Shown: piece by piece, positions 10,295 to 13,200 of the stretch | How the letters are laid out: every line of letters begins with the position of its first letter | How positions within the stretch are numbered: position 1 is the stretch's first letter | NCBI GenBank assembly: GCA_001414345.1 | Contig: LLCB01000026.1 | Location: 124,001-188,000 of the forward strand | Reading direction: 5' to 3' | DNA length: 64,000 bases | Source: Hymenoscyphus infarciens | Lineage: Eukaryota > Ascomycota > Leotiomycetes > Helotiales > Helotiaceae | The notes under the pieces: generated by a model | Seen by the model: the letters and a program-made list of their open reading frames with translations, nothing else | Told to the model about the DNA's origin: nothing | The model's database searches: none | Program-made: the position numbers and the translations under genes

Positions 10295-13200
10295 ATGTTC
10301 CGGAGGTATGTATCTACCCTTCAATGTCCTTTTCAGCATCGCAATGGCTTGCAATGGGTCAATTGAACTGACACGGTTCCCTCGGTAGCGCCCTTCAAAA
10401 ATCTGCCTTCCAGGCCTCGCGGAGCGCTTTCAGACCAGCCGTCTCTACTGGATTAAGAGCGTCTGGTGCTCGGTTTGCGAGTGACACAGCCCTCCATGGC
10501 AAGATTCATCAGGTCATTGGTGCCGTTGTGGATGGTGAGTGATGGAAAATTCTTCCCCGACGACGACATTGAGCTCCGCACCACCGGAAAACACTTCGCA
10601 GAGCTCGATGATCGAAGGCATCGCATGCTGATATACCCCGATAGTAAAATTCGATACCGACAAGCTCCCTCCTATCTTGAACGCCCTGGAGACGGATAAT
10701 GGTGGACAAAAGCTGGTTCTTGAGGTCGCGGTACGTCAACACGATCAACACATACTTCCATCAAGCACTGACACGCATTACAGCAACATCTGGGACAGAA
10801 TGTCGTCCGAACAATTGCTATGGATGGTAAGAAGAGCTTTCCCCACTGGGTCGAGGCCAATTGCAGACACTGACGCGCATCGCAAACAGGTACCGAAGGT
10901 CTCGTACGTGGACACCGAGCAACCGATACTGGAAACCCAATCATGGTACCAGTCGGCCAAGGAACACTCGGTCGTATCATGAACGTTACTGGTGACCCAA
11001 TTGATGAGCGTGGACCAATCAAGCACACCAAGAAGCTCCCAATTCACGCCGACGCTCCTTCTTTCACCGATCAATCTACCGCGGCTGAGGTTTTGGTTAC
11101 CGGTATCAAGGTCGTCGACTTGCTCGCCCCATACGCTCGTGGAGGAAAGATTGGTCTTTTCGGAGGAGCTGGTGTCGGAAAGACTGTGTTCATTCAAGAG
11201 TTGATCAACAACATCGCCAAGGCACACGGTGGTTACTCGGTTTTCACTGGTGTAGGAGAGCGAACTCGTGAGGGTAACGATTTGTACCACGAAATGCAAG
11301 AGACCAAGGTTATCCAACTTGATGGAGAGTCCAAGGTTGCCTTGGTTTTCGGTCAAATGAACGAGCCCCCAGGAGCCCGTGCCCGTGTTGCTCTTACCGG
11401 GGTACGTACCTTTCCTCTCTTAACACTTCCTTCCCTCCAACCTTACACCTCATCGCTCCTACCCTTAGATTGGGACAGTGTTGGCACATTACCCCGCTCG
11501 AGTTCATGATGGTTGTCGCAATCTCCTTGACAACCATCATGAGCTCGAGCGAGATGGAGACTGAAGACTCCTTGGACGCTGTCCAGCTCCTCCAACTCGA
11601 CCCGGGTTCGCAGGAGATTGACGACATGGCCCATGGACTCGTCGTCACCAAGTGTCCAACACGGTACCCCAATCCAGACTTCAAAATGCTGTTTGAAGAG
11701 CGTGGTAACTACAATAGCGTTGCAGCATGCTCTCCACACACCATGGCACCACAAATGACTAGTGTTGTTTCTGCTGCTGAGCCGCCCTCGCTCGACTTCT
11801 TTCGCAGCCTTCCGCAGGAGTCAAAAAGCGATCACTGGGGCATTTACACCTTGATCATGGAGAAACGACAGGGTACACCGGAGCTTTATGTGGGATCTGG
11901 GACCAACAGTGACTCTGGCGTACGAGGAAGAATGCGGTCGTACACCAAGAAGCCATACAACAGGCATAGCAATCTGCCGAGATTTGTCAAATTACGGATC
12001 AAGCAAGGCTACCACATCTCACACATTGGTTTGCTCTGCTGGACTCCTTTGCCTACTCCTGGCCTCGCTCCCCGGGTCAGCGGCCGAATGCTGCTGTTAG
12101 AGGCTGCATTCACCGTAGCATTCCACGCCACATTTGCTGCCATCACCGACCAGCACATCTTGCACCTGGCCTCGAGTTGCTGTCGTATGGAAGCCGCTCT
12201 GCTCCCATCTCTCCCCCAATGAAGGAATCCGGGGAGACCTCAAACTGAGCCCAGAAGTGATATCGCTGTCGCTGCTGTTCGTGCTACTGCAAATGCCAGC
12301 AGGACTCACTACTGCTCAACTTGCAAGAAAGCTTTCGACAATGACTACAGTCTGACTCGCCATCTCGAAATGGACTTGCACGAAAGGAGGGTCAAAAAAG
12401 CCCTCAATTAACCTCTTCCATATTGTCTTTCATACTGTCTTTCATACGTTTCAAACGATTTTACCAATTTTGTCAACAAAATCCACACTGTTCATTTGCT
12501 AATACAACACAATTTAGCTTACAATTGCTGAAAATTTCCGCGATGATGAGGGCCAAGATGTCTTGCTCTTCATTGACAACATTTTCCGTTTCACCCAAGC
12601 CGGTTCCGAAGTATCTGCTCTTCTCGGTCGTATCCCCTCTGCTGTCGGTTATCAACCAACTCTCGCTGTTGACATGGGTCTTATGCAAGAGCGTATTACC
12701 ACCACACACAAGGGATCTATTACTTCCGTCCAAGCCGTCTACGTGCCAGCCGATGATTTGACTGATCCTGCCCCTGCCACCACCTTCGCCCATTTGGACG
12801 CCACCACTGTGCTTTCCCGTGGTATCTCCGAGTTGGGTATTTACCCAGCTGTCGATCCTCTAGATTCCAAGTCTCGTATGTTGGATCCCCGTATTATCGG
12901 TCAAGACCACTACGATACTGCGACCAAGGTCCAACAGATGTTGCAAGAATACAAGTCGCTTCAAGATATCATTGCCATTTTGGGAATGGACGAGTTGTCA
13001 GAAGCTGACAAGTTGACTGTCGAACGTGCCCGAAAACTCCAAAGATTCTTGTCACAACCATTCGCAGTTGCTGAAGTTTTCACTGGTAGTAAGTAATGCC
13101 ATTCAATTGAAATATGAGCTTTTGCTGACCCCATAAACAGTCAAGGGTGTTCTAGTTGACTTGAAGGATACTATCCGATCATTCAAGGCTATTATGAGCG

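Follow-up and report, generated by a model that had tools for sequence, protein, structure and literature searches.

The fifth intron of ATP2, the nuclear gene for the mitochondrial F1-ATPase beta subunit of the fungus Hymenoscyphus infarciens, holds a gene of its own, and this raises the question of whether a homing-type gene can live in an intron that the spliceosome removes. For a long time such genes were associated with inteins and with introns that splice themselves. The locus lies in a window of 64,000 nucleotides (nt), the whole stretch of DNA analysed here, which corresponds to positions 124001-188000 of one contig (C180) in a 65.6-Mb assembly of 742 contigs. An earlier note, made from the letters of the window, had proposed that the intron houses a GIY-YIG endonuclease-like gene followed by a C2H2 zinc finger. 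It is reasonably probable, in our view, that a spliceosomal homing intron has decayed here, with a GIY-YIG-like/C2H2 gene inside it that belongs to a family residing in nuclear spliceosomal introns. More tentatively, and with somewhat less than an even chance of being right, we propose that spliceosomal homing introns form a family in the nuclear genomes of fungi. Its members would be selfish GIY-YIG/C2H2 genes lodged in ordinary introns of essential genes, where they do no harm, and would spread through cutting of intron-less alleles and decay in place.

The long ATP2 intron and its nested gene

The features of the ATP2 locus, in window positions, are the following.

10295..13360, plus strand: ATP2, mitochondrial F1-ATPase beta subunit, the host gene; eight exons, 511 amino acids (aa), placed by exon search and a structure-database match
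11402..12517, plus strand: ATP2 intron 5; phase 0, 1116 nt long, from GTACGT to TTTAG, with a branch-like CTAAT whose start lies 19 nt from the end
11495..11551, no strand assigned: inverted repeat over the start of the nested open reading frame (ORF); two 23-nt arms, 96% complementary, 11-nt loop
11506..12222, plus strand: nested ORF with the GIY-YIG-like region, 238 aa and then TGA; GIY at 11839-11847, YVG at 11887-11895, Arg140, Glu199
12220..12222, plus strand: in-frame TGA between the nuclease-like part and the finger, which breaks the frame
12223..12411, plus strand: continuation in the same frame with one C2H2 finger (12289-12408), ending in TAA; Pfam matches below cut-off
12412..12517, plus strand: 3' tail of intron 5, 106 nt, holding the branch-like site and the acceptor

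The ATP2 model was built by trying GT/AG choices at most 8 nt from exon ends placed by eye, and the best solved match of its product is a mitochondrial F1-beta chain (E = 1.7e-251). The seven introns of this eight-exon model measure, in order, 83, 110, 53, 63, 1116, 52 and 52 nt, intron 5 being 10-21 times the length of its six neighbours (52-110 nt), which bears out the phase-0 GT-AG intron of 1,116 bp, far longer than the others, that the earlier note had described. Its placement of the intron between ALTG and LTIAEN of F1-beta was likewise confirmed: the ALTG|LTIAE junction is free of gaps in the alignment of the product to solved mitochondrial F1-beta, and the match to PF00006 is interrupted exactly at intron 5, with profile position 93 ending exon 5 and position 94 opening exon 6. 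Removing 11402-12517 therefore costs the host gene nothing; retaining it introduces 10 stops into the ATP2 frame. One full match to ATP2 was found in the genome, and the two further matches are only 31% and 28% identical.

The coding part of the nested ORF (11506-12219) lies on the same strand as ATP2 and contains GIY at residues 112-114 and YVG at residues 128-130, followed by Arg140 and Glu199. The longest open run within intron 5 spans 272 codons, a length also attained by 7 of 5000 first-order Markov simulations, and G+C (guanine plus cytosine) at codon positions 1, 2 and 3 of the nested ORF is 0.542, 0.458 and 0.618, the second position being the lowest, as it is in two ATP2 exons. The C2H2 finger that the earlier note had placed downstream is present and in the same frame; it lies behind the TGA at 12220-12222, and the 302-codon frame 11506-12411 is not open. 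Some fungal proteins may resemble the nested ORF in a way that would imply frameshifts near 12170-12250, a point to which we give no weight. This finger matches zf-C2H2_jaz (3.7e-4) and zf-C2H2 (7.3e-4), in both cases below the curated Pfam cut-offs.

Two minor elements accompany the nested gene. The inverted repeat at 11495-11551 is predicted to fold as a strong hairpin, and matches of this segment to microRNA families fall far short of the gathering scores. In the 3' tail of the intron, directly after the nested frame, a 12-nt tandem duplication occupies window positions 12414-12437, with units TCTTCCATATTG and TCTTTCATACTG that are 83% alike.

A sister element in the clathrin heavy chain gene

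When the GIY-like part of the ATP2 copy was used as a query against the genome, one other place was found, C714:188457-188630, with 36% identity (E = 2.8e-6). The host of this second copy is clathrin heavy chain, the flanking exons matching Pfam Clathrin at 3.3e-29 and 1.2e-141, and a clathrin heavy chain exon used as a query gave a single match in the genome. The sister element shows that the family has settled at least twice. Its features are as follows.

L005:3483-5436, host strand: clathrin heavy chain intron with the second copy; 1954 nt, phase 1, GTGAGT...AAAG, CTAAC starting 19 nt from the end
L005:3679-3764, 3840-3893 and 4052-4104: three intron-like units upstream of the nested ORF; 86, 54 and 53 nt, each with GTAAGT, a branch-like site and AG

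The intron junction reads DPGL, a split codon and YIAY, and retention of the intron brings 25 stops into the host frame. Besides the GIY-like part, a 396-codon open frame within it carries three stretches that resemble fingers, the third lacking its final His, and the zf-C2H2_jaz match of this copy exceeds the curated cut-off. Three intron-like units in the leader arose in none of 2000 simulations; these units suggest that the nested gene has, or once had, a spliced transcript of its own. Fusion of the nested ORF in frame to the host exon through these three units was considered and rejected, as none of the eight combinations opens the frame as far back as that exon. Palindromes of the AATCAGCA...TGATT type lie inside two of the three units.

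Both modules tie the two copies together. Three protein queries linked the GIY-like region to the clathrin-intron relative (E = 2.8e-6, 1.5e-11 and 3.0e-11); the GIY-like parts are 37% identical over the best 86 residues (E = 3.0e-11), and the copies as a whole are 33% identical over the trimmed alignment. The fingers match reciprocally, with 44% and 41% identity (E = 4.3e-5 and 8.0e-5), and the sole other genome match of the ATP2-intron finger was the last finger of the clathrin element (41%, E = 8.0e-5), so that the nuclease-like and finger parts match between the copies independently. Queries with the clathrin-copy protein, its GIY-like part, its last finger and the window finger all gave matches only within the two introns; these genome counts are lower bounds, since strongly divergent members could escape. 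We thus observe a family with two modules whose detected members in this genome are confined to two such introns, with a stop between the modules of the ATP2 copy and a frame change ahead of the last finger of the clathrin copy. Each of the two has the orientation of its host and sits in a long intron of a single-copy housekeeping gene. This repetition of the arrangement in the clathrin intron makes a chance nested pseudogene less likely.

Relatives were sought more widely. Intron DNA of either element found only itself in the genome, the sole extra match of the ATP2 intron being its inverted repeat against itself on the opposite strand. No relatives were found in the viral collection (queried with the pair alignment and both single proteins), in the prokaryotic collection (pair alignment) or among phages (clathrin-copy protein). 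All six genome matches to LAGLIDADG_1 (E up to 0.01) lie on the mitochondrial contig, and the two intron elements therefore stand apart as nuclear; HNH_3 had no match in the genome at E up to 0.1.

Probable relationship to GIY-YIG nucleases

Judging from the arrangement of motifs, membership of the nested proteins in the GIY-YIG class is likely. The order in the ATP2 nested ORF, GIY, YIG, Arg and Glu, agrees with the published definition of the class (PMC1564403). GIY and YIG-type motifs followed by Arg are present in both copies, which have in common G[IV]Y, [YF][VI]GS, and N and Arg positions; in the full-length alignment, Arg140 is common to both. When each protein was shuffled 100,000 times, a pattern composed after the motif had been seen, G[IVA]Y...[YF][VI]G...R, with no Glu, occurred in 9 shuffles of the ATP2 copy and in 20 of the clathrin copy. 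Among the 486 ORFs of at least 60 aa in the window, L005 and L007 taken together, it was found in two, and these are the two elements. It also matched five of eight phage pieces, and the slices of the other three started at IY or VY, with the first Gly outside. The same-strand frame with GIY, YVG, Arg and Glu in the earlier note was therefore recovered, whereas its catalytic assignment stays putative, the roles of Arg140 and Glu199 having been assigned by inspection only.

A homing model and its alternatives

Under the homing model, which is drawn by analogy with known homing genes, the fingers would bind a conserved site of the exon, left intact only where the allele has no intron, the nuclease-like domain would cut at this finger-bound site, and repair off the element-bearing allele would copy the intron together with its gene. 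The spliceosome would then remove the intron from the ATP2 mRNA, and the host would therefore pay little. The nuclease fold, the site-specific cutting, the copying by repair and the splicing in vivo are the parts of this scheme that we infer.

Several results weigh against the model. The GIY-YIG fold that the earlier note expected was not recovered by profile methods: scans with Pfam, PHROGs and NCBIfam gave no GIY-YIG or nuclease match for either copy, and PF01541, which recognised two yardsticks in the same genome (a cox1 gene at 1.3e-9 and an SLX1-like exon at 0.0056), recognised neither. With a home-made profile of ten phage, viral and mitochondrial GIY-YIG sequences (the short fragments L022 and L026 left out), the SLX1-like exon ranked first, and the copies ranked 55th and 62nd of 2181, amid shuffles and decoys. 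Comparison by hhalign with a GIY profile drawn from the cox1 protein, ten pieces of phage sequence and one of a viral contig gave a probability of 1.8% (P = 0.027) for the two copies as a pair; taken singly, the ATP2 copy scored 0.4% (P = 0.16) and the clathrin copy 2.0% (P = 0.024), and the register was right throughout. The pair profile had no nuclease among its matches in the PDB, and the two single-sequence AlphaFold models of window sequence (pLDDT, the predicted local distance difference test, 30.8 and 35.5) are too low in confidence to serve in a fold search or to carry weight on the fold of this class, in which three helices surround three strands. Glu199 of the ATP2 copy stands opposite Ala in the full-length alignment, with VVEAAI of the clathrin copy a few columns off. 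Both copies, moreover, look damaged. The TGA parts the nuclease-like region of the ATP2 copy from its finger, which makes activity of this copy unlikely, and the finger stretch lacks a codon-position signal (G+C of 0.5 at all three positions); in the clathrin copy, the fourth and last finger (L002:2208-2378) lies in a different frame just past an A run. The stop and the frame change may each be an assembly error. Detected members number only two, and the empty sites show no likeness between the hosts: 1750 of 5000 shuffles reached their alignment score, as did 2392 of 5000 pairs of random coding sequence. No shared recognition site was seen in the two host genes, so that the copies would have had separate targets. 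The earlier idea of a homing-type element in a nuclear spliceosomal intron thus survives as a nuclease-like/finger gene in a spliceosomal-type intron with a sister in the clathrin intron, but the nuclease fold went unrecognised by profiles.

Some of these points give weight to a different account, which we regard as unlikely though worth serious attention, in which the introns hold remnants of nested retro- or transposed genes: a GIY-YIG/C2H2-like family of ordinary or transposon origin would have landed in introns by chance and been kept because introns tolerate insertions, with no homing. The broken ATP2 copy, the frame-changed clathrin copy and the dissimilar empty sites all suit such remnants, as do the three intron-like units of the clathrin leader, which suggest that such a gene had introns and a transcript of its own. 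Introns, however, make up little of a fungal genome, and yet no copy outside introns was found in the protein searches of the genome, whose counts are lower bounds. Nor is chance insertion of remnants favoured by the hosts, which are single-copy housekeeping genes with the nested frame on their own strand. The repeats listed (20 of 22 direct families) include none that links one end of an element to its other end, and DNA searches found the sequence of these introns nowhere else in the genome. That the nuclease-like motif is a coincidence, and that the intron-nested genes are a fungal C2H2 family with a different role, such as that of a transcription factor, seems to us improbable. This reading would accord with the failure of profiles to recognise GIY-YIG and with profile support that is limited to the fingers (below cut-offs in the ATP2 copy, above that of zf-C2H2_jaz in the clathrin copy), but the motif region itself is conserved between the copies over those 86 residues, and the pattern is rare in shuffles of either protein.

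As a further alternative, a group I intron able to splice itself might have come from an organelle together with the homing gene that such introns commonly carry; we judge this very improbable. According to PMC1564403, GIY-YIG intron homing genes were as of 2006 known solely from group I introns, and this genome does have a GIY-YIG gene at cox1 on its mitochondrial contig. Both host introns, however, have GT-AG ends, a fungal-type donor and a branch-like site 19 nt from the end. Group I introns as a rule follow a U at the 5' splice site and end in G, whereas the upstream exon ends in G at both host introns, so that this boundary rule is not obeyed at either. An Rfam search recognised no group I intron in the window or the clathrin intron, a result that is uninformative since the mitochondrial control was missed as well.

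Comparison with known systems

The closest parallel to the proposed ATP2 homing intron comes from mirusviruses, for which PMC12768974, a paper of 2025, reports 334 nuclease genes within spliceosomal introns, 132 of them GIY-YIG; these introns are named shintrons, and the association of nucleases with spliceosomal introns is there called previously unobserved. In the literature searched, this paper was the only one with a relevant use of the term. As described there, shintrons resemble both introns here in their GT-AG ends, in carrying nuclease genes (GIY-YIG among them, and putative in the introns here) in highly conserved genes and in having no recognised group I or group II signature. The homing-type nucleases expected of a shintron are of the HNH, GIY-YIG, VSR-like or PD-(D/E)XK kind. 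They differ in residing in viral genomes, mostly (64.1%) in virion genes (PMC12768974), whereas the present hosts are cellular nuclear housekeeping genes. Unlike in shintrons, the nuclease here is recognised by motif only, C2H2 fingers stand behind it and the copies look damaged. Both copies are candidates for the first cellular shintrons: the find is built like a shintron, yet a putative nuclease and putative homing do not suffice to classify it as one.

Classical GIY-YIG homing nucleases, that of fungal mitochondrial cox1 included, share with the ATP2 copy the GIY, YIG, Arg and Glu order and residence in an intron, and I-TevI has a C-terminal DNA-binding part with a zinc finger (PMC1564403). 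The present elements depart from them in the nuclear, spliceosomal-type host intron, in the C2H2 fingers and in escaping PF01541; the GIY-to-YVG spacing is 13 residues in the ATP2 copy compared with 10 in the T4 protein. A similar housing is known from the Faustovirus capsid gene, a conserved gene of a eukaryotic virus with GIY-YIG genes in its introns (PMC6247863), but the introns described here are canonical GT-AG introns in cellular genes. The cases met in PMC6247863, PMC4226871, PMC8393795 and the other literature searched were organellar, viral or unrelated. Among the papers listed in a literature search by title and start of abstract, which ran without bioRxiv and most subscription journals, none was seen to report a cellular nuclease gene in a spliceosomal intron.

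If the homing model is right, homing genes can live in nuclear genomes under the cover of the spliceosome, and these introns would be the first cellular counterpart of the viral shintrons. Such elements would be a source of long introns that has gone unrecognised, might be a path by which introns are gained, would make the gain and movement of introns testable through presence or absence at exact sites, and would indicate that conserved genes harbour natural drive elements.

Genome context

Downstream of ATP2, an AT-rich island extends over window positions of about 14000-27000, with 18-38% G+C in 500-nt steps compared with mostly 38-54% around it; it looks like the product of repeat-induced point mutation of transposon remnants. 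Elsewhere in the genome, the mitochondrial contig C340 (L006), which reads with table 4, carries the GIY-YIG gene continuous with a cox1 exon. This reading of the mitochondrial contig, the AT-rich island and the short introns are in keeping with a filamentous ascomycete. On contig C46 (L004), the GIY-YIG exon with E = 0.0056 adjoins a downstream frame with a Cys-rich region, and this gene is probably SLX1.
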